From Bryobacteraceae bacterium (lineage in GTDB: Bacteria > Acidobacteriota > Terriglobia > Bryobacterales > Bryobacteraceae): a DNA stretch of 64,000 bases. Under the pieces are notes generated by a model. That model made no database searches and was not told the DNA's origin. It saw only the letters and a list, made by a program, of their open reading frames with translations. Positions 7,965-47,558 of this stretch are shown piece after piece (within the stretch, counting starts at the first letter, position 1; each line of letters opens with the position of its first letter). A program made the translations under genes and the position numbers. The stretch is taken from positions 930,001 through 994,000 of the forward strand of contig BPGD01000001.1 in the NCBI GenBank assembly GCA_026002855.1, read 5' to 3'.

Positions 7965-8276
7965 ATGGCCCTCTTCCGCATCCACAAGATGAAGGAACAC
8001 GTGCGGCAGAACTTCCGCTGGGCGCCCCATTCCAGCGGACTGGCGCTGATCAGGCCGCGCGACTTCGAGCCCGGCGGCGAGGTGGAAGCGTCCGGCTTCT
8101 ACGACGCCTGGATGCGCCTGCGGGGCACGGCCAGCGCGCTCGACATCGGCGACGTGCTCGAGTCGCCCGCCGGCGAGCTGCGCATCTGCAAGTACGTCGG
8201 CTTTGAAGAGGCCCGCTGGCGCGAGCCTGAGCCGGAGCAGCCACCGCTGGCCGCCGCTCCGGCTGGCGCCGGCTAG
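7965..8276 (+). CDS. Conserved-looking 103-aa hypothetical protein
   Basis: A 103-aa soluble protein starting MALFRIHKMKEHVRQNFRW. The centre is compact, with motifs HSSGLALIRPRDFEPGGEVEASGFYDAW and LDIGDVLESPAGELRICKYVGFEEARW, followed by a Pro/Glu/Ala tail. I do not recognise the family. The start at 7965 is chosen because a good promoter (TTGACA, GACAAT) would place the transcript start on that ATG; an upstream TTG at 7929 overlaps the -35 box and is unlikely. The sequence gives no evidence of membrane or secretion signals. It lies alone between a propeller protein and a GH16 enzyme. Confidence 0.6.
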   Translation: MALFRIHKMKEHVRQNFRWAPHSSGLALIRPRDFEPGGEVEASGFYDAWMRLRGTASALDIGDVLESPAGELRICKYVGFEEARWREPEPEQPPLAAAPAGAG

Positions 8277-33218: not shown

Positions 33219-36200
33219 TCAGGACAGCCCGGGCAGCGGCCAGAACTCGGCCACTTCAATCCGCACCGGCCCGATCAGGCCCGCCTCAGTGAGCGGCGAG
33301 TTCGCGTCCCAGTGCTTCCAGGTGGTGAAGGTGACGCGGCCGCCCGGCGGCTTGGGCTGCCCTTTCACGAACCAGTCCGGCAGCTTCTGGATCGCGTTGC
33401 CGAAACCGGCCCGGGCCATTCCTCCGGCCCCGTATTCGGCCTCCGGCGGCAACTGCTCATCGCCGATCAGGCGGTTCACCCAAAGATTGGTCACCTGCAC
33501 CTCCAGCCGGTTCGCTCCGCGCCGCAGGAGGCTGGTGACATCAGCGCGGAACGGAGGCTTCCAGAACTGCCCTGCGGGCTGACCGTTGAGCGACACCTGG
33601 GCGATGACGGCCACGCGGCCCAGATCAAGACAGGCGCGCTGGGAAGGCTTGAGCTCGTGATTCCAGGCAAAGTCCGCCTCATAGCGGGCGGTCCCGGAAA
33701 AGTGGCGGACTCCAGGGTCGGAATGCCGCTGGAGCGGGATGAGCCTGTCCAGGCGAATCGAGGCCGGCGCCCCGAGTCCGGGCGGGAAAGACACCGTCCA
33801 GGGACCGGCCACCTCCACGGCCGGAGGCGGCGCGGCCTGGATCTCCGCCGCCTGCACGCCCTGAACGCGCCAGCGGCCCGGCTCCCACACGAGCAGCCCG
33901 GGCCCGGGCAGCAGGGCGATCTCCACCGCGCGGTGCGGCGTGAAGCGGGGCGGGCCCTGTTGGACCATCGCGGCAATTTCGGCCTCGCTGAGGGCCTTCG
34001 GTACAACCTCGGGTGCGCACTGGTCGCCTTCGAAGTAGCCGGCGCCATCGCTCTGGAAGGATTCGCCGACGCCCGGATGCACGGTGAAGCGGCTGCGCTG
34101 CCCGCGTGAGACCAGCCTGCCGTCGATATAAACCGAAGGCGTGTTGTCCTGGTAGACGAGCGCGATGTGCGTCCAGCCGGACAGGCCGGCCTCGACGACC
34201 AGCACCGCTTCCAGCGCGGCGCAGGCCCGCTCGATCACGCTGACGCCGTTGCGGCCGGCCACCAGGCCGCAGGCGGCGTGGCCCTGGCCGTAGAGCGTTT
34301 CGCCTGCGGGCGGATAAAACAGGAAACTGTGCAGGTCGCCCGCCGGGCTCCAGCCCGAGGTGCGCGGCGGCGTGAGCGTGGCGAACGAATCCGGCTTGCA
34401 CCAGACGGAGACGGTGAACGTCCCCGACGTCTTCGCCTGACGGCCCGGCGCCGGCTGCGGGAACGGGGCCGCGGCGAGCACGGGCACCGCCGCCCCGTCG
34501 CGCGTCACTGCGGTCACGGCCCGGTGGGGCGGCTGGTTGCGGAAGACGACAAACGCGCTGCCGGCGGGATCAAGCTGGAGCGGCAGGAGGGTTCTTCCAT
34601 TGCGCACCTCGAACACCGGCGCGGGCGCCATCGCTGCCGAATCCGCCAGCCAGATCTCCGGCCGCTTGCCCGCGACGCGGAAGCTCGCCACGATGTCCTC
34701 CGGCTGCCGCCGGCGGCAGGCGACGAAATAAACATCGTCATCCCCCACGCGGCGGTGGATGAAGTTCACCGGCGCATCGCCCGAGCGTGACGTGCATTCA
34801 AAGTCCGGCGGCACGCCCATCCGGGAGAGGATCTCCGCAAGCGGCAAGCCCCAGAACACACGTCCGTGGCCCAGAGTATTTTCGCGAACCGTGCTCCCAT
34901 TGGCCCGGCCCCACAGCTCATCAGCCAGTTTCTTCCATTCGGCCTCGGAGGCCGAATCGGCGAGGCTCGGGGAGCGCAGCGGCCTGGGACCGGACAGCCA
35001 CATGCCGGCGCGCACCAGCTCATGGAGCTTCCGCAGCACGCGCAGCGTCATCGTGCGGCGCTCGGGCAACACGAGCAGCCGGTATTCGGCGCCGCCCTCG
35101 ACGCGGATCCGTCCCTGCGAGAAACCCACGCGGCGCAGCAGCGTCTCCGCGTTCAGGAAATCAAAGTCGTAGCCGGACGGAAGCGGGGGGTTCAACGCTT
35201 CGGGCGCCGGTGTATCGACGGGGGCGTCCTCGCCGGTGAAGTACAGCAGGTCGGCCGCGGGCTGGCCCTGCTGAAGCAGGTACTGGCAGCGGCTGAGGTA
35301 GTCGATCCACGGCCCGGCCTTCTCAAACCACGTGTTTGTCCGGTCAAAGTGAAAGCCCCACGGGCCCATCGTCATGCCCGGCAGCACGGAGGGATGCGGC
35401 TGATGAGCGTAGCGGTGGAAGATGCAGAGCGTGAGCCCGTGCGTGTACATCCAGTCGCCCTGCGCCTTCAGCGCGTAGGGGTGCTCCTGCCAGCGGGAAA
35501 ACATGGGCGCGCCGGTGAACGACTCGGCGCCCACAACGGAATGGCCCTTCAGATGAGCCACGGAAGAGGCGAGCTTCATGCTGCGGTCCAGTTCGCCGCG
35601 GCGGGCGAACCAGAACTCGCCCATCGGAATGTCCACGCGCATCCCGATCTGCACCTCGTCGAACGGCCCGCCGTCGTAAGGCTCCGTATACGACTTGATG
35701 CCGTGACGGTGGCAGAGCTCGCTGAAGCGGCCGTAGTAGTTGTCGGCCATCAGATCGGCCTGCACGCGGCGGACGTCCCACAGAAACCTCTCTGTCGTCT
35801 CGACGCTGCCGACGATGCGGCCGGTGAAGGCTGGCAGATATCTCAACAGGTCGTAGCCGGCCCGGCTGCGGAATTCCTCGGCGAAGCGGTCGGTCCAGTT
35901 CTGCATGCCGACCTCGTAGCTGTCGATGAGTCCGCCAGCCAGCCCGCGCCGGCCCAGCCGCTCGAGGTCTTTCAGAATCGGGCCGAAGAAGCCCTGGAAG
36001 TGATGATCCATGGCCGCGGCACTGTACTTGTCGCACTCCAGCCCGGCGCCGCCGTCCGGCGCTGGATGATTGGTGCGCGCGGTGGTCGTGTAACCGATGC
36101 GCAGAACCGTCCACATACCGGCGGGCGCGTCCCATTCGAGGGTTCCATCCGGACGCATGCGGGAAGTGAGATCGACGATCCGTCCAGGGTCGATGGCGGA

Positions 36201-37292
36201 AGCGGCCGGTGCGTCTGGCGTGGGTGCGTCCAGCTCGGAGGCGCGGCCCCGTGAATGGTGCAGGTAGTTTGCCTTCACTGCCCAGTTCTGCAAACGCGGC
36301 GCGCCGGACAGCCGCAACACGGACACGCGGCGGGCCTGCGGCAGCGTGATGCGGAAGAAGCGGCCGCGCACGGCCGCAAACGATGCACTCACCGGGGCCA
36401 GAGGCCAGCCATCGAGCACGTTGCCCGTGTTGAGATTCAGATCACAGGCCTTCTCCCATCGCGCGCCGTCGGCCGAATGCTCGAGCGACGCGGCGCCGCC
36501 GGGCGCGCCAAAGCCGCCTCCGCCCGGGCCGGCGGGCACGGCGTAAAAGGAGACAGAGCGCACCTCCACGGGTTCAGTGAATTCCACCGTCAGCGTGCCG
36601 GGCGCATTCTGTCCGCCCGGAACCACCGTGACCCCGCTGCGGGGATCATCGCCGAACAGCGCATCGATCTCAGCCGCGCCGAGCTCCACCGGCGCGGCGC
36701 CCTGCTGCGTGGCCGCGCGGGCGGCCCGCACGAGCGGCCGCTGCGGCCGCTCACCTGCGGGTGCCGGGAAAGCGACGACGGCAATGTCGCGGTAGAAATT
36801 GAGCCGCGCCGGAGGCTGCGGCAGCGGAAGCTGGACGCGGCGCCCTCCTTCCACGGTGCGCTCAGTCCAGGTGACGACCTTCATCGAGTGTTCGGGACCG
36901 TTCCACGGGCCGCCGCTCGACGACCAGCCCGGGCAGTTGTGGAAGTCGCACTCGATGCCCAGCCGTTCGGCTTCGTTCAGCGCGTGCACGAGCAGCTTCA
37001 GGTGCTCCTGGCTGCCGTAGTCCACGGGACCTTTCGGGATGCCCGTGCCCGCCTGAAAGATCTGGACGCCGCGCACGCCGATGCGCGCCATCGCTTCCAG
37101 GTCGCGCGTGATGCCGTCGGCGGTGATGTTGCCGTTCATCCAGTGCCACCAGGTGCGCGGGCGGGCCGAGGCGGGAGGATCGGCGAAGGACTTCGCCACA
37201 ACCAGAAGTCCGCCGGGCTGCGTCTGCGCCGAAAGCAGGGGCGGGGCGGCGGCGCCGGCCGGAATCAGATGAAGAAAAGTGCGGCGCTTCAT
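33219..37292 (-). CDS. GH106-family alpha-L-rhamnosidase with LamG-like insert
   Basis: A 1357-aa exported enzyme. It opens with a Tat-like signal (MKRRTFLHLIPAGAAAPPLL) and the GH106 blocks RTWWHWMNGNITADGITRDLEAM, GVRGVQIFQAGTG and ECDFHNCPGWSSSGGPW; the barrel continues through QRNWTDRFAEEFRSRAGYD-like and SYTEPYDGGPFDE segments. Around 980-1110 a laminin-G-like domain appears (FTVSVWCKPDSF, VYIDGRLVSRG), and a galactose-binding-like domain ends the protein (ANRLEVQVTNLWVNRLIG). It removes terminal rhamnose from pectin or other glycans. ATG 37292 has GAGGAC correctly spaced; 37298 is too close. It is downstream of the TonB receptor. Confidence 0.8.
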   Translation of the reverse strand: MKRRTFLHLIPAGAAAPPLLSAQTQPGGLLVVAKSFADPPASARPRTWWHWMNGNITADGITRDLEAMARIGVRGVQIFQAGTGIPKGPVDYGSQEHLKLLVHALNEAERLGIECDFHNCPGWSSSGGPWNGPEHSMKVVTWTERTVEGGRRVQLPLPQPPARLNFYRDIAVVAFPAPAGERPQRPLVRAARAATQQGAAPVELGAAEIDALFGDDPRSGVTVVPGGQNAPGTLTVEFTEPVEVRSVSFYAVPAGPGGGGFGAPGGAASLEHSADGARWEKACDLNLNTGNVLDGWPLAPVSASFAAVRGRFFRITLPQARRVSVLRLSGAPRLQNWAVKANYLHHSRGRASELDAPTPDAPAASAIDPGRIVDLTSRMRPDGTLEWDAPAGMWTVLRIGYTTTARTNHPAPDGGAGLECDKYSAAAMDHHFQGFFGPILKDLERLGRRGLAGGLIDSYEVGMQNWTDRFAEEFRSRAGYDLLRYLPAFTGRIVGSVETTERFLWDVRRVQADLMADNYYGRFSELCHRHGIKSYTEPYDGGPFDEVQIGMRVDIPMGEFWFARRGELDRSMKLASSVAHLKGHSVVGAESFTGAPMFSRWQEHPYALKAQGDWMYTHGLTLCIFHRYAHQPHPSVLPGMTMGPWGFHFDRTNTWFEKAGPWIDYLSRCQYLLQQGQPAADLLYFTGEDAPVDTPAPEALNPPLPSGYDFDFLNAETLLRRVGFSQGRIRVEGGAEYRLLVLPERRTMTLRVLRKLHELVRAGMWLSGPRPLRSPSLADSASEAEWKKLADELWGRANGSTVRENTLGHGRVFWGLPLAEILSRMGVPPDFECTSRSGDAPVNFIHRRVGDDDVYFVACRRRQPEDIVASFRVAGKRPEIWLADSAAMAPAPVFEVRNGRTLLPLQLDPAGSAFVVFRNQPPHRAVTAVTRDGAAVPVLAAAPFPQPAPGRQAKTSGTFTVSVWCKPDSFATLTPPRTSGWSPAGDLHSFLFYPPAGETLYGQGHAACGLVAGRNGVSVIERACAALEAVLVVEAGLSGWTHIALVYQDNTPSVYIDGRLVSRGQRSRFTVHPGVGESFQSDGAGYFEGDQCAPEVVPKALSEAEIAAMVQQGPPRFTPHRAVEIALLPGPGLLVWEPGRWRVQGVQAAEIQAAPPPAVEVAGPWTVSFPPGLGAPASIRLDRLIPLQRHSDPGVRHFSGTARYEADFAWNHELKPSQRACLDLGRVAVIAQVSLNGQPAGQFWKPPFRADVTSLLRRGANRLEVQVTNLWVNRLIGDEQLPPEAEYGAGGMARAGFGNAIQKLPDWFVKGQPKPPGGRVTFTTWKHWDANSPLTEAGLIGPVRIEVAEFWPLPGLS

Positions 37293-37352
37293 GAGCATGT
37301 CCTCAGCATGGAAATCAAATCACATTCAGGGCCGGCCTGCGTGCACGCCGGC

Positions 37353-37409: not shown

Positions 37410-40400
37410 TCAGAATTGCAGTCGCAGCGAAAGCTGCACGTTGCGCGGGTCATTGGCCTGGGAAGGCGAGACGACGCCGAAGTTGGCCGATCCCAGCGTC
37501 GTGTTGGGCGCGCCGAACCACGGCGTATTGGTCAGGTTGAAGGCTTCGGCGCGGAACTGCATGCGCACGCGCTCGGTGATCGGAAACATCTTGAACACGC
37601 TGAAATCGACCAGCGGCGCGCGCAGCGTGCGGATGTTCGGGAAACGCACGCTGAGCGTGCGCAGCGCATAGGGATCCTGCACGAGCCACGCCACCGGCTC
37701 ATCGGCGCTCGCGCAGCTCTGGCGCACTCCGGCCAGGGTGAGCGTGCAGGTGTTGAACCAGCGGGCGCTCGTCGGGTTGTTGATCCGGGGATTTACGCCG
37801 GTGCTGACGGCCCCGCCCGGCGCGTTAATGGGCAGGCCGGTCTGGAACGTCGCGATCCAGTTCAACTGCCAGCCGCCGATCACCTGCTTCACCACTCCGC
37901 GGGACGTCTTGCCGAACGGCAGCTCGTAGCCGCCGCTGAGGGTGGCCCGCTGTGGCGTGTCGAACGAGGTGAGCACCTTGGCCAGAGCTCCGAACGGATC
38001 CTGCGCGTTCAGGTAGCCGACCGCCTCCAGCGTCTTCGAGATGGTGTAGCTGAACAGCGCGTGGAAGCCGTGCGAGAGCCGTTTTTCGACGCGGAGCTGG
38101 AAGCTGTCGTACCAGCTCTTGCCGATGGTGCGGTTGGCCTCGGTGATGTCGTTGTATTGGGGGAAGGGCCGCAGGAGCTGCTGCTGCGGCACGGTGGCTC
38201 CATTGAAGGCCGTGCCGGGGAGCAGGCCTGCGAACGGGTTCGGCACTTTCGTCAGAAGCGCGTCGCGCAGTGCCAGCTTGTCCGCCGGAACGGCGTTGAT
38301 GCCTTTCGAGGTCTGAAGCGACAGCGTACGCGAGCCCACATAGGAAACGTCGATCAGGACGCGCCAGGGCAGCTCGTGCTGAATCCCGAAGGAATACTGG
38401 TGGACGTAGGGAATCACCCGCTGCGGCCAGGAATAGGTGAAGCTCAGGCCGAGCATCGTCGCCTGGCGGCCGAGCGGCTGAATGATGCCGCTCGGATAGG
38501 GGTTGTTCCACTGGCCGGCAGGCGTGAGACCGCCGTCGACGGATTCGACGTAAGGCGTATCGATGCTGAAGCCGTTGAACTGGCCGACGTCAAAGGTGGG
38601 CAGGTAACTGATGCCCCAGCCGCCGCGCAGCACGGTCTTCGAGGTGAGCTGGTAGGCCGCCCCGATGCGCGGCTGGAAGTTGTTCAGGTCGCGGTCAAAG
38701 GGCAGGCGGTGGCTCGAGTCGGTGAACAGGAGCCGCCCCTTGAGGTCCAGGCCCGGAACCTAGAGCGGGCTGGACGCGGTCCAGTCGAAGCCGCGGTTCT
38801 GCCGGTCGAACCGCTCCGTGATCGGCGACTCATAGTCCCAGCGCAGGCCGAGATTCAGCGTCAGCCTGTTGGTGATGCGCCAGTCGTCCTGGAGGAACAA
38901 CGCGGAGTAGCGCGAGCCGAGCGCAAGATCGGGCCGGATGGGAACATAGCCGCTGGCCGGATATCCGAGCAGAAGCGACGCGAACGCGTTGCCCGCCGCC
39001 GCCTCCGAGCGCAGCGGATCGCGCTGCGTGAAGCCTTTGGTGAACGAGAAGACGCCGAACCACGAAGCCGGGTTCTGCTGGTTGTCCAGCTTGAGGCGGC
39101 CTTCGAAGCCGAACTTCAGCGAGTGGCGGCTGATCACCTTGTTCAGGGTCTCCTGAAGCGACCACTGGTCAGAGAAGCTGAACACGCTGCCCGAGCCCCA
39201 GTTGGGCCCGAAAGTGGTGTAGTCGGTGTAGGTGATGCGAGGGAACGACTTCCGCGGCAGTTGCGCGCTCAGCGAGGCCGGAAAGCCGAGCTGCGCCGGG
39301 TCGAACCCGTCGGCGTGGTGGGCCACGGCGAATTCGTGGCGGATGTAGCCGATGCGGAAGCTGGACACAAGCGACGGGCTGAGCGTCGAGGTCAGGTCGA
39401 TGCCGCCGCCTTGATTGATCCGCCAGTGGTTGTACCACGCCGAAGCCTCCCGCGGGAATCCTGCCGTCGAGTTCGTTTCGTGGCGGTTGCTGTGCAGGAA
39501 CCGGCCGAAGAGGCGGTGTCTGGAACCGATCACCTGGTCGATGCGGAGCACGTGCTGATCGTAAAGGTCCGTTCTCGGGTTCGGGGCGATGACCAGATTG
39601 AAGAAGCCGCGGGCATCGCCGGCGGTGTTGGGCCTGGGGATGTAGTTCAGCAGATTCTTTGACACCGGGTCCCAGCGGATCTGCGGAATCAGGTTGCCGG
39701 GGAACGGATCGCGCACCCAGCCGCTGCCGGAGGCGCGGATCGTGGCCGGGTCATAGACGAGAATCGGCTGGCCGTTGGCCTGGACGGTCTTCGAAAAGTC
39801 GCCGGCGCGCTGTTCGAGCGTGGGGACGGTCATCGTCTGAGGGAACGGGATGCTGCTCTTGATGCGCTCCCAGGAGTACATGAAGAACGTCCGGTTGCGG
39901 CCGTCATATACCTTGGGAATCCACACGGGCCCGTCGAAGCGCAGGCCGGGCTGGTTCCAGCGGAAGCTCTGCTTGGGCGAACCCGCACGGTTGGCCTCGA
40001 AAGTGTTGGCGTTGAGCTTGTCGTGCCGGAAGTAGTGGTACAGAGCGCCGTGGAAATCGTTGGTGCCGCTACGGAGGCTCACGTTGATGACGCCGCCGCC
40101 GGTGCGTCCGTACTGCGCGTCATAAACATTGGTCTGCACCTTGAACTCTTCGGTGGCGTCCGGGCTGGGCACGAAGCTCAGGTTGCCCGGCTGGTTGGTT
40201 TCCGTGCCGGTGTTGGGGACGCCGTCGATGAGGAATTCATTGGTGAACTGGCGGCCGCCATTGATCGAGAACGAGTCCATGCCGCCGTTGTCAAAGGGGC
40301 GGTTTGACCGGCTGGCCAGGCTCGGCGTGTACTGCACGGCCGGGGCCAGCACGGCCAGCATGAACGGGTTGCGGCCGAGCAACGGCATCTCCGCCACTTT

Positions 40401-40817
40401 CTGTGAGTCGATCACCTGGCCGCGCGCCGCCGTGCTGGTCTCCAGCAGTTCGGCCGAAGCCGAGACGACGACGCGCTCGGTGACGCCGCCCAGTTCCAGT
40501 TGAAAGTCGATACGCAGCCGGTCACCGACGCGGACCTCGACGTCCTCCCGCACCGCGCGCTTGAACCCTTCGCGTGACGCCGATACCGTATAGCGGCCCG
40601 GCGGGATGAACGGCGCCACATAAATGCCTGACTCGTTGGTCTGCGTGGTGATCAGCGCATTGGTCGCCAGGTTGCGGATTTCGACAGTGACCCCCGGCAC
40701 GACGGCGCCGGTGGGATCCGTCACGGTTCCGTTGATGGTTGCCCGGAACTCCTGGCCGGACAGCCACGGGGCCGCCACGGCCAGCAGCGCAACGAACAGG
40801 GGTGCTCGCAGTCTCAT
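37410..40817 (-). pseudogene. TonB-dependent receptor (CarboxypepD_reg type) interrupted by an in-frame TAG
   Basis: Together the two open segments form one 1136-codon frame: signal peptide (MRLRAPLFVALLAVAAPWLSG), carboxypeptidase-regulatory-like domain (GTVTDPTGAVVPGVTVEIRN), plug (NGGRQFTNEFLIDGVPN) and a long barrel ending SLRLQF. The frame is broken only by TAG at 38760-38762 (codon 686), between ...TASSPL and VPGLDLKGRLLF; the reading frame is unchanged on both sides and a CAG to TAG change would explain it. No restart with a ribosome-binding site follows. It should be an outer-membrane oligosaccharide importer. Options are a recent pseudogene, a sequence error or suppression. ATG 40817 has GAGGTG eight bases upstream. 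Confidence 0.85.
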
Positions 40818-41366: not shown

Positions 41367-41587
41367 TACCGCCGGGTACGGTCCGGCAGTTCGTCCGGAG
41401 ATCCTGTGTTTGATAGCGTCAAACCAGACGGCGCCCACAAGGATCGACTTCCATGGGTGGAGCCGGGGCCTGTTCCAGGGGACCGTTCGGGACAGCCGCA
41501 GGCGGACGAAACGGGTCTGCGGCACGGCGTGGATCATGGGGCTTGCATCGAGGAAGAGAGTCGGCATACTGTGAGGGCGAAGAGACG

Positions 41588-42715
41588 ATGACGACGGCGG
41601 AAGACCGGGATCCGTATTTCATTCAGTCCGTGGCCCACGCGGTGGACGTGCTCCGCGCGTTTGGTACACCCAAAGAAATCCTGCGGCTCAAGGACGTGGT
41701 GGAGCGGACCGGCCACAGCAAGAATACTGTCTTCCGGGTCCTGCACACGCTCGAACGGACCGGCCTGGTCGAGAAAGTGGGCCCGCGGGAATACCGGTGT
41801 ACTGTTTACCAGTACAGGATGCGAAAATACAAGATCGGCTATGCCGCCCAGGGATCGGATTATCTCTTCTCCCAGCAGGTGACGTACGGGCTGAAGCAGG
41901 AGGCCGAGCGCCTGGGAAACATCGAACTGCTCGCGCTCGACAACCGTTATAACCCAAAAATTGCGCTAAAAAATGCCGAGGTTTTCATCCGCGAGCGGTG
42001 CGATCTGGTCATCGAATTTCAGACGAATGAAAACATTGCTCCGATCCTTTCGGCCATGTATCAGGAGGCTCGAATTCCGGTAATTGCCGTCGAAATTCCG
42101 CATCCTGGGGCCGTCTTTTTCGGCGCCAACAACTACCAGGCGGGCCTGATGGGGGGCCGCGCTCTCGGGCGGTGGGTAAACGAGCACTGGGACGGCCAGG
42201 CCGATGAAATCATTCTGATGGAGCTGCCGCGCGCCGGTCCGGTACCCAGGGCCCGCCTCACCGGCATCCATGCGGGCATCGTCGAAGAGGTGCCGCAACT
42301 GGCCTCCTGCCCGGTGACCTATCTCGACGGAGACGGCTGCTTCGAGCCGAGTTTCCGGGCCGTGAAAAGACACCTGCGAAACTCGCGGGCGAAGCGGCGC
42401 ATTGTCAGCGGCATCAACGACGCCAGCGTCCTGGGCGCGTTGCGCGCGTTCGAGGAATGCGGCATGCAGGAGGTCTGCGTGGCCGCCGGGCAGAACGCCG
42501 CGCCCGAGGGCCGGGACGAGCTGCGGCGCGGGTCCCGCTTCATCGCCTCCGTGGCCTATTTCCCCGAGCGTTACGGCGTCTGGCTGCTGAAGCTGGCCGA
42601 CGACATTCTGACATTCAGGCCGACGCCTCCGGCCGTCTTCGTCCGGCATCAACTGCTGACGGCAAAGAACGTGGACCAGTATTACCCGGCCGACCAGCTC
42701 GTGCTCGGCGGATGA
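41588..42715 (+). CDS. Transcriptional regulator: IclR-type HTH fused to a periplasmic-binding-protein-like sensor
   Basis: A 375-aa protein. Residues 8-72 read as an IclR winged helix (FIQSVAHAVDVLRAFGTPKE, RLKDVVERTGHSKNTVFRVLHTLERTGLVEKVG). The rest is not the usual IclR ligand domain but a type-I periplasmic-binding-protein fold (ERCDLVIEFQTNENIAPIL, RIPVIAVEIPHPGAVFFGANN, RRIVSGINDASVLGALRAF), as found in LacI-type and sugar-binding proteins. There is no signal peptide. It is divergent from the TonB receptor/rhamnosidase genes and likely controls them in response to a sugar (inference). The start at 41588 places the HTH at the N terminus. Confidence 0.75.
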   Translation: MTTAEDRDPYFIQSVAHAVDVLRAFGTPKEILRLKDVVERTGHSKNTVFRVLHTLERTGLVEKVGPREYRCTVYQYRMRKYKIGYAAQGSDYLFSQQVTYGLKQEAERLGNIELLALDNRYNPKIALKNAEVFIRERCDLVIEFQTNENIAPILSAMYQEARIPVIAVEIPHPGAVFFGANNYQAGLMGGRALGRWVNEHWDGQADEIILMELPRAGPVPRARLTGIHAGIVEEVPQLASCPVTYLDGDGCFEPSFRAVKRHLRNSRAKRRIVSGINDASVLGALRAFEECGMQEVCVAAGQNAAPEGRDELRRGSRFIASVAYFPERYGVWLLKLADDILTFRPTPPAVFVRHQLLTAKNVDQYYPADQLVLGG

Positions 42716-44018: not shown

Positions 44019-47000
44019 TCAGAACGACAGGCGCAGCCCAAAGCGGAACTGCCGCGAGGAGTCCGCGCTGGTGATGGACATGAAGTTCTGCAACGGGTTC
44101 GGCTTCGAAGTATCCAGCGAGCCGTCCGGCCGCAGCTGCATGACGGCTGAGTTGCCGGACGGGTTGCCCCAACGGGCGTTGTGAGCCACGTTGTAGGACT
44201 CGGCCCGGAACTCCAGGTTCAGCCTCTCCGTCAGGCGGAAGATCTTGAACAGGCCGGGATCCAGCCGCCAGAAGCCCGGACCGTACAGGGCGTTGATGCC
44301 CATCGAGCCCGGGATGTACTGCGGGTTGTTCCTGTCGAAATAGAACAGCGGGTCGCGGAAGCTGGACGGGTCGTAATAGGGCTGGCCGGGGCCCTTGCCG
44401 CCGAGCTTCTTCACCGGGCCGATCTGATGGGCGGTCTGCGTGCAGCCGATGCACTGGAGCGACTGTGCGCTGCCGGTGACCGTGAACGGCGTGCCCGAGT
44501 AGGCGCTGAACATGCCGCTCAGCCGCCAGCCGCCGGCGACCGCCTCGGCCCACCTGTTGGCGATGTTGAACCTCCGGCCCTTGCCGAAGGGCATCTCGTA
44601 GACCCAGCCCATGGTGAACATGTGACGGCGGTCGTAGCTGGCCGGAGAGTAGTTCCGCCTGAGCATGCCCTCCCAGTTGAAGGCCTTTGGACCGGTCCAG
44701 CCGGTGTCATCGGCCATGTTCAGGGCCTTGCCGAAGGTGTAGGAGACGGTGAGGAAGAGGCCCTGGCTGTAGGACTTCTTCACGTTCACCTGAAGCGAGT
44801 CATACGCGCCATAGCCCCAGCCATCCCACATGTTGGCAGCGACGGTCTTGCCGTAGAGCTTGGCCAGCGGCAGGTTGGCGGTGCTGACGCCCAGACCCGG
44901 CCCCACCGTGTTGATGTTGCGGTCCATCAGCTGGTGGATGGTGCGCGTGGCCACGTAGCCGGCGCTGGCGACGATGTTGTAGGGGAGCTGACGCTCAAGG
45001 GTGAAGTTCCAGCTCTGGATGTAGCCGCGGTGCAGCATGCCGCCCCACGGGCTGCGCGGGCCCATGTCGAAGCTGAGCGGGAGCTGGAGGATGCCGGTGC
45101 TGATGTCCGGCGTCGGAACGTCCGGAATGCCCTGGTCGATTGTATTGAACCAGCCGAAGGTGGACACGGTGGGCACCCACGAAGCAGACAGCGTGGCCGG
45201 GTAGAGGCCGCGCAGCGGACGGCCGAACGGGATCGGATCATACGTGATGCCGTAGCCGGCGCGTACGACGTTCTTGTCCCCGATGCGGTAGGCGAAGCCG
45301 ACGCGCGGCGCGAACAGCTTCTTGCTGACCTCGATGCCCGCATTGCGCGGCACATTGCCGAGCCCGCCCAGGTAGACGGTGTTGGTGTAGGGATCCCACC
45401 TCTCGATGCCGCGGTCGCCGCGATTGATCAGCGGATAGTATTCGTAACGCAGGCCAAGGTTCAGCGTCAGCCGCCGATTCACCTGCCAGCGGTCACGGAA
45501 ATACCAGGCGAGCTGCCATTCACGGGTCTTCATCAGCAGGTACTGAATCGACTTGTTGTACGAGCTGACCAGACCCAGGAGCGCTGCCGCATAGGCATTC
45601 GGTTCCCGTGCCGGCTGGCCCGGTACAATCGTGACTCCGCCAGAGAAGCTGATCGCACCGCGAGGATTGGCGGTCTCCGGCTGCCAGTGGTTCAGCTCCA
45701 GGCGACGCGGCTCGAAGCCCCAGCGGAATTCGTGTGCGCCGACGATCTTCGAGAAGTTCGTCTGGTAGGTGTAGCTACGCTCCTTGCGGAACAGCGGGGC
45801 CCAGGTGGCGCCGACGCCGATGTAGCTGAAGCCGAAGCCAGTGATTTGCGGCAGGCCGCCGTAGCGCGGGTCGTTCGCATATTGCCGGCCGCCATTGGTG
45901 CCCGGAATCTTCCATTCATCGAGGCCCACGTTCTTGCCCATGCCCGGGATGCCTACTTCCTGGTCCATCCGGGTGTAGCCGAACACGCCGTCCATGTAGA
46001 AGGTCGGCGAGAACGTGTAGTTGTACCCGCTGGTCACCAGTTGCGTAGTCGTGTCGCCGAAGCCCTCGGTGCCGAGCGCCGAGCCGCCCAGGTCGCCGAA
46101 CGGATACACGCCGCTGACCGGCGCGTCCATGCGGCTGTACTTGCCCCAGACCATCAGCTTCGACGTCGCCGCCCAGTTCGACTTGAAGTCATACTGGCGC
46201 CGGCGAAGGCTGAGCACGCCCGAGGCGAAGTAGTTGCCCTGAAGGTTGTTGGGGTCGGTTGGAGAGACCTGGTTCGGCCCGGGCATCTTGGCGTAGATGT
46301 CCGGAAAAATCGGGTTCCATCGGGACTTGGGAACGACGTTGCCGGGGAACGGCTGGCGGTTGGCCGCCTGGTTGGGCGGGGCGGTCGCCGGATCGTACAC
46401 GATGGAGTAGCCCGCCCACTTGCTGAAGTCGCCGTTGCGGAAGTCCTGCGGGGCCACCGAGTAGTTGCCCGAATAGCCGGTGCCTTCGTAGGTCCCCTCG
46501 AACGAGAAGAAGTAGAACAGCTTGTCCTTGATCACCGGCCCGCCCAGCGTGCCGCCGAAGATGTTCTGTGTCGTCTTGGGCATCTTGAACGTCGCCGAAC
46601 GGAAGTACGGGGCCGTGTTCAGGCGGTTGTTGTTGTGATACTCGAAGGCCACGCCGTGCAGCTCGTTGGTGCCGGATTTGGTGGTCACGGTGATGGCCGC
46701 GCCGCCGGCCATGCCCTGCTCGGCATCAAACGAGTTCGTGCTGATGTTGACCGTCTCGATCGACTCGACCGGCTGCACGTAGGCCACATGGTGCGGCAGC
46801 CAGATGTTGATGTTGACCGCGCCGTCAGTGAGCGTGTTGTTGTTGTTGCGCGGCGTGCCGTTGATGTTGGTGGTCAGCGCGCGGCCCGGAGTGTCCACTA
46901 CCGCGTTCTGGAAGCTGGCCGGGGTGGCGCCGGGGACTAGGTTGATCAGCGTCTGGTAATTGCGGTAGCCCGGCAGCGGCATGTTGGTGACCACCGAGGA

Positions 47001-47423
47001 CGAGATCTCGGCCCGGACGTCGCTCTTGTCTGTCTGGAGCACGGTGGCCGCCGCCGACACGGTGACCTGCTCGGTCATCTGGCCGACCTCGAGCCTTGCA
47101 TCCACGCGCGTGACAGTGTTGATGGAGACCTCCACGCCCGTGCGGGTCAGCGTCCGGAACCCTGGCGCGGAAAACTTCAGTTCATAAGTGCCCGCCGGGA
47201 GGTTGGGCACGGTGTAACGGCCCGCTTCATCGGCCTCGAGCTCACGGGTGATGCCGGTGGCGGGGTTGGTAATGGTGATCCTGGCCTTGGGAACGACCGC
47301 CCCGGTGGGGTCCTCTACAACGCCAACGATGGAGCCGTACAGGACCTGCGAAAGGGCAGGCGCCGCCATCGCGACAAGCAGAACGGCGAGGGCGGCTAGA
47401 GTGATGGCAATGTGTCTTCGCAT
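44019..47423 (-). CDS. TonB-dependent receptor with carboxypeptidase-regulatory-like domain
   Basis: A 1134-aa outer-membrane protein: signal peptide (MRRHIAITLAALAVLLVAMA), regulatory-like domain (GSIVGVVEDPTGAVVPKARI, residues about 28-110), plug (NINGTPRNNNNTLTDGAVNI, then GMAGGAAITVTTKSGTN) and a large barrel ending FRFGLRLSF with a terminal Phe. No separate TonB box was seen. Such receptors import oligosaccharides or other large solutes, or bind extracellular polymers. Unlike its relative at 37410-40817 it is intact. A good sigma70 promoter and GGAGGAGG precede the gene. Confidence 0.88.
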   Translation of the reverse strand: MRRHIAITLAALAVLLVAMAAPALSQVLYGSIVGVVEDPTGAVVPKARITITNPATGITRELEADEAGRYTVPNLPAGTYELKFSAPGFRTLTRTGVEVSINTVTRVDARLEVGQMTEQVTVSAAATVLQTDKSDVRAEISSSVVTNMPLPGYRNYQTLINLVPGATPASFQNAVVDTPGRALTTNINGTPRNNNNTLTDGAVNINIWLPHHVAYVQPVESIETVNISTNSFDAEQGMAGGAAITVTTKSGTNELHGVAFEYHNNNRLNTAPYFRSATFKMPKTTQNIFGGTLGGPVIKDKLFYFFSFEGTYEGTGYSGNYSVAPQDFRNGDFSKWAGYSIVYDPATAPPNQAANRQPFPGNVVPKSRWNPIFPDIYAKMPGPNQVSPTDPNNLQGNYFASGVLSLRRRQYDFKSNWAATSKLMVWGKYSRMDAPVSGVYPFGDLGGSALGTEGFGDTTTQLVTSGYNYTFSPTFYMDGVFGYTRMDQEVGIPGMGKNVGLDEWKIPGTNGGRQYANDPRYGGLPQITGFGFSYIGVGATWAPLFRKERSYTYQTNFSKIVGAHEFRWGFEPRRLELNHWQPETANPRGAISFSGGVTIVPGQPAREPNAYAAALLGLVSSYNKSIQYLLMKTREWQLAWYFRDRWQVNRRLTLNLGLRYEYYPLINRGDRGIERWDPYTNTVYLGGLGNVPRNAGIEVSKKLFAPRVGFAYRIGDKNVVRAGYGITYDPIPFGRPLRGLYPATLSASWVPTVSTFGWFNTIDQGIPDVPTPDISTGILQLPLSFDMGPRSPWGGMLHRGYIQSWNFTLERQLPYNIVASAGYVATRTIHQLMDRNINTVGPGLGVSTANLPLAKLYGKTVAANMWDGWGYGAYDSLQVNVKKSYSQGLFLTVSYTFGKALNMADDTGWTGPKAFNWEGMLRRNYSPASYDRRHMFTMGWVYEMPFGKGRRFNIANRWAEAVAGGWRLSGMFSAYSGTPFTVTGSAQSLQCIGCTQTAHQIGPVKKLGGKGPGQPYYDPSSFRDPLFYFDRNNPQYIPGSMGINALYGPGFWRLDPGLFKIFRLTERLNLEFRAESYNVAHNARWGNPSGNSAVMQLRPDGSLDTSKPNPLQNFMSITSADSSRQFRFGLRLSF

Positions 47424-47450
47424 GGGTGACGAGACAACCTCCTCCGAGAT

Positions 47451-47479
47451 ATTAGAATGCATTACGCGATCTTGGTCAA
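47451..47479 (-). promoter_or_regulatory. Sigma70 promoter of the intact TonB receptor gene
   Basis: On the minus strand TTGACC (47479-47474) and TCTAAT (47456-47451), each five of six consensus bases, are 17 bp apart. The transcript would start near 47444, right at the GGAGGAGG ribosome-binding site, about 20 bases before ATG 47423. Confidence 0.65.
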
Positions 47480-47558
47480 GCCTGCAATTTTTGCAACGGT
47501 GCTTCGAAAAATCAGAAAGCGCTTGCATATGCCCCACGTGCGAGAGATGGGGCCTGAC

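Follow-up and report, generated by a model that had tools for sequence, protein, structure and literature searches.

The TonB-dependent transporters (TBDTs) YddB (6ofr), FusA (4zgv), FepA (1fep) and Cir (2hdi) have in common a plugged β-barrel fold, and the receptor described here is predicted to share it. An AlphaFold model of the receptor, made with its one internal stop codon read through (mean pLDDT 81.6), matches all four with a Foldseek probability of 1.00 and TM-scores of 0.63–0.72 on the target, and the 50 Foldseek matches listed for the model are all TBDTs by title. Unlike these four, to which it is only 9–13% identical, the receptor carries an additional N-terminal CarboxypepD_reg domain, and no PDB chain was found to match it by sequence at E ≤ 0.001. 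Its closer relatives are acidobacterial receptors built from CarboxypepD_reg and OMP_b-brl_4 (PF25183) domains, which it resembles in domain order, length and C-terminal strand. These homologues are 60–91% identical to it and come from Bryobacterales-type records; the copy studied here differs in its in-frame amber codon. In having a single lesion, a frame that is otherwise intact and many paralogues, the locus is also like recent nonsense pseudogenes of surface receptors in general. Titles and the opening lines of abstracts yielded nothing on the locus itself.

On the minus strand, the gene occupies 37410–40817 of the window, by which we mean the whole stretch of 64,000 nucleotides that was analysed. 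Its frame runs from 40817 to 37410 through 1136 codons, the final stop counted, and is broken once, by an in-frame TAG at residue 686 (38760–38762, minus strand), so that it translates as MRLRAPLF...DWTASSPL*VPGLDLKGRLLF...QLSLRLQF*. The plus-strand frame 1 of the same interval has five stops and is a separate reading, unrelated to the receptor. Reading through the TAG gives a protein of 1135 residues in which PF25183 spans residues 248–1128 and covers positions 2–838 of its 838-position profile (648.6 bits against a cut-off of 30, E 2.3e-194). The same protein matches PF13620 at residues 27–108 (80.4 bits, cut-off 32.3), PF07715 at residues 158–242 (24.8 bits, cut-off 23.9) and PF00593 (38.9 bits, cut-off 27), so that both barrel and plug domains exceed the curated cut-offs for membership in the PF25183 group of TBDTs. 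The preliminary description, which left the minus strand unsaid, thus placed the gene and its one stop correctly, and the PF25183, PF13620 and PF07715 matches bear out its identification of a TonB-dependent receptor. The part before the stop (38763–40817, minus strand) encodes 685 residues with a signal peptide recognized by eye, the CarboxypepD_reg domain, the plug and roughly the initial half of the barrel strands. The 449 residues after it (37410–38759, minus strand) supply the remaining barrel strands and a C-terminal strand with the final Phe. In the model, residue 686 falls between strands 674–682 and 693–698, about half-way through the barrel. The full-profile PF25183 match and a stop-free, end-to-end alignment to the 91% identical orthologue of a related genome, G001 (locus L052), together indicate that the frame did not arise by chance. 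As judged from sequence, the receptor is a PF25183-group TBDT by descent whose coding frame is continuous except at residue 686.

The position of the stop was compared across 56 fetched loci, 17 of which are distinct loci at 60% identity or more when apparent same-genome pairs are counted once. None of these 17 homologues has a stop or a gene boundary at residue 686; real boundaries there, which would have told against the preliminary description, were thus looked for and not found among them. Thirteen of the 17 are open throughout the match, which begins at residue 22 at the latest and reaches at least residue 1133. By hand count the column holds Gln in 11 of the 17, Arg in three, Lys in two and Ala in one. 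The conserved Gln of the preliminary description is thus overstated. The codon is CAG in G001, in a second relative, G002, and in loci L039 and L041, AAG in L040 and L043, and AGG in L042. The stop is thus missing from the orthologues, as befits a pseudogene, and the earlier proposal that a single C-to-T change turned CAG into TAG agrees with the CAG of G001, G002 and L039. Four homologues are incomplete in other ways: those of L043 and L055 are cut by contig ends, that of L058 has a frameshift near residue 735 (about position 8196 of the locus), and that of G002 (L059) begins at residue 607, with residues 1–606 missing from the piece of contig that was fetched. If the G002 and L058 assemblies are right, the receptor would have been lost more than once. 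In G002 the truncated receptor adjoins a different open reading frame within the contig (L059 5950–6010, at about 77786 of G002 contig C40), as either a deletion or an assembly join would produce. Two record names look wrong: DYJN01000006.1 (L059), titled Arcobacter sp., holds an 87% homologue of the receptor, and VFZE01000038.1 (L046), titled Acidimicrobiia, a 66% homologue.

Constraint is apparent before as well as after the stop. Against G001, dN/dS is 0.085 over the 685 codons before the stop and 0.101 over the 449 codons after it. With L039 as outgroup, the lineage of the host genome (G000) and that of G001 have 23 and 23 amino-acid changes before the stop and 12 and 13 after it, and 61 and 66 synonymous codon changes before it against 35 and 35 after it. 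Relaxed selection downstream of the stop was thus not detected in either the dN/dS values or the lineage counts, and the symmetry of the substitutions rules out an old pseudogene. Constraint on both sides and no excess of amino-acid change in the G000 lineage mean that the stop is either very young or an error in the base, the two readings that the preliminary description had put forward as recent loss and as sequencing or assembly error. A young lesion leaves no signature of decay, and selection statistics therefore cannot separate mutation from error.

We consider it likely that the TAG has very recently made a null allele of an ordinary, dispensable TBDT. A single base difference places a terminator at residue 686 in place of the Gln codon of close relatives, and we envision that release factor RF1 would end translation there. 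A barrel protein that is missing its later strands and its C-terminal strand should not fold into the membrane. The 685-residue product, lacking about half of the barrel together with that last strand, would accordingly be unable to close the barrel and would presumably be degraded. By polarity, the 1.35 kb left untranslated may in addition reduce expression of the rhamnosidase gene downstream. Loss could be tolerated since several dozen paralogues make up the receptor repertoire of G000, which appears to be eroding.

That downstream gene encodes a GH106 α-L-rhamnosidase of 1359 residues (33219–37298, minus strand; PF17132, 715.5 bits, E 1.2e-214), is open, and is the next gene on the same strand, 111 bases beyond the receptor. 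On the other side, a divergent regulator with an IclR-type helix-turn-helix and a Peripla_BP_4 domain lies at 41453–42715 (plus strand), and an 80% homologue of it stands upstream of the receptor in L052. Among the 56 loci, a GH106 gene follows closely behind the receptor in L052 (G001), L059 (G002), L039 and L042, and in L057 at 39% identity; in L041 a weak match (30%) lies on the opposite side of the receptor, and the other 50 loci have none near the receptor within the fetched DNA. Close counterparts are missing from G003 and G004 both for the receptor (39–40% at best among the matches listed) and for the GH106 enzyme (34% and 28%). In the three genus members that possess the pair, the receptor is open in G001, stopped in G000 and beheaded in G002, and the GH106 gene has no internal stop in any of them, its end being cut by the contig in G001; the enzyme has thus not been lost together with the receptor. 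The receptor may import rhamnosides. The preliminary description had the neighbouring rhamnosidase right, as the GH106 match and its adjacency to the receptor in L052, L059, L039 and L042 make clear. The linkage is real, but the further suggestion that the enzyme would be left without its likely importer is overstated: related matches fall into about 47 clusters across the genome, and in G002 the GH106 gene is open beside a beheaded receptor. A second full-length PF25183 receptor, also open, lies at 44019–47537 of the window, 3.2 kb upstream of the broken one.

Breakage extends to other receptors of the same genome, a matter that the preliminary description did not cover. In genome coordinates, the receptor at 661665–665099 (L099) has TGA where G003 and G004, whose orthologues are open, have TGG; it has a second stop, of ambiguous ancestry, in the signal peptide, and its 133 G000-specific amino-acid changes carry no information, as G003 and G004 seem to be sister genomes. 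The receptor at 1884514–1888179 (L100) has TGA where G001, G003 and G004 have TGG; G002 differs there, and the orthologues in G001 to G004 are open. At about 1036007–1039512 a one-base insertion shifts the frame at 1036367 relative to an open copy in G001. Two receptors have TGA in the signal peptide, in place of TGG at 2053559 (L255, 2053000–2057000) and of an ambiguous ancestral codon in 3435824–3437905 (L259, 3434300–3438400), and a receptor remnant with a TAA lies at 4290718–4291677. Measured against a relative, dN/dS is 0.093 for the receptor at 3435824, 0.175 for that at 1884514, 0.123 for that at 661665 (against G004) and 0.375 for that at 2053559; this last value suggests that the lesion at 2053559 may be older or the gene under relaxed selection. 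At E ≤ 1e-20, stops occur in 6 of the 41 TBDT match rows of G000 and in 0 of the 109 rows of G001 and G004 combined (Fisher p 0.0003), a post hoc comparison of rows, hand-counted in G000, rather than of loci, and with two of the four congeners. Two of the six stopped rows are N-terminal cases and one is the remnant; the three internal cases alone give p 0.019. Among the matches listed, the third congener, G003, has at least one receptor row with a TAG, and of the more distant genomes G009, G012 and G016 have at least one stopped row each and G025 at least two, so that stopped receptors are not unique to G000.

The main rival to a young null allele is an error of base calling or assembly, in which case the organism has CAG and an intact gene. 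We regard this as the less likely of the two and, taken by itself, as rather unlikely. The surroundings of the stop do look like those of a functional gene, and the number of single-base lesions in receptors of this genome is unusual; both speak for an error. Random errors should, however, strike other genes as well. A broken-gene survey against G001 covered about 219 kb of aligned columns in both directions by a mechanical and noisy procedure that flagged 9 of 48, 10 of 54, 16 of 102 and 15 of 107 open reading frames (14 of 46 and 8 of 49 in an earlier version on the first stretch). Most of the flags were judged by eye to be wrong starts, shadow frames or small frames; those inspected singly comprised three regions aligned as DNA and three read in six frames. 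In our judgement, with part of the flags inspected, only two long genes in the survey have clear internal breaks, each of them a TBDT of G000, which in our view favors a real, receptor-biased loss over random base errors. Against error stand also the frameshift at 1036367, which lies outside any long homopolymer, and the estimated completeness of 100% for the genome, a single contig of 4,437,915 bases.

An improbable variant is that the stop is a strain-level polymorphism and that the consensus happens to show a null allele that is recent or in the minority and may have been retained as a defense against a phage or a colicin-like protein. The lack of decay would fit an allele of population age, and solved TBDT structures include, by title, complexes with colicin Ia, microcin V and pyocin S2; such a polymorphism would nonetheless refine the reading of a recent null allele and is not a separate mechanism.

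Readthrough or recoding of the TAG, which would yield a full-length receptor, seems to us very improbable. It would account for a downstream constraint about equal to that upstream, but a search of the whole genome with RF00005 found 46 tRNA matches, and no CTA anticodon is present either among the 44 that ARAGORN typed or in the other two, a set that lacks at least two expected tRNAs and so is not exhaustive. Matches to PylS are cross-matches, the best of 23.7 bits, far below the cut-off of 178.15, and we reject both amber suppression and pyrrolysine decoding on these grounds. RF1 is present (534.5 bits), and TAG is the terminator of 18 of 102 and of 26 of 125 long, high-GC3 open reading frames in two stretches of the genome, by a mechanical list that may include the broken receptor frame and some shadow frames. 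The TAG at residue 686 is, moreover, shared by no fetched relative. The preliminary description's alternative of readthrough by a suppressor tRNA accordingly found no support in the tRNA set or in the presence of RF1.

The tRNA search gave two further observations. The expected tRNA-Ile(GAT) and tRNA-Ala(TGC) are not among the 46 matches, through a search miss, masking or absence. The two matches left untyped by ARAGORN are D-armless and tRNA-Lys-like, with anticodons CUU and UUU as read from the covariance alignments, and lie on contig C1 of G000 at 430489–430554 (L198/L253) and 3874416–3874473 (L199/L254). Each adjoins a near-identical open reading frame of 394 residues, by eye a tyrosine integrase; probably a single integrative element is present twice, in tRNA-Lys genes, and the two matches resemble attachment-site relics.

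It is more improbable still that the receptor stops, TAG for CAG and TGA for TGG, act as leaky switches that near-cognate decoding turns back into the original residue; if true, receptors that are costly and exposed to phage would be kept at a very low level, as a form of bet-hedging, and the alleles would not be dead. That the locus encodes two proteins, a 685-residue receptor half and a 407-residue half re-initiated at a GTG at 38633, is scarcely credible: the downstream frame has this possible start, but residue 686 marks no split in any of the 17 homologues, and the C-terminal part has by eye no signal peptide and so could not reach the outer membrane.

For the base change itself, a methylation hotspot was considered. 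The codon is preceded by CTC and followed by G, so that CAG at residue 686 would form CCAGG, the context of the well-known amber hotspot in lacI of E. coli. Of the nearest three relatives only G002 has this motif, the context being CCAGG in G002, TCAGG in G001 and GCAGA in L039. No match to the C5 methyltransferase family PF00145 was found in the genome by a search that was positive in 10 of 14 control genomes. There is likewise no excess of C-to-T differences at C[C]WGG sites, where G001 has C and G000 has T in 4 of 666 cases and the reverse holds in 11 of 730. Deamination at a Dcm-type CCWGG site is rejected on both counts, and an ordinary transition remains as the cause.

Taken alone, a very recent null allele at this locus carries little weight, as a further case of a receptor allele that has newly acquired a stop. 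For annotation it is a caution, since the broken receptor could be called as two partial genes. The pattern of which it is part, with several TBDTs of one genome bearing one or two lesions each and none found in G001 and G004, would modestly illustrate how fast an expanded receptor repertoire can turn over.
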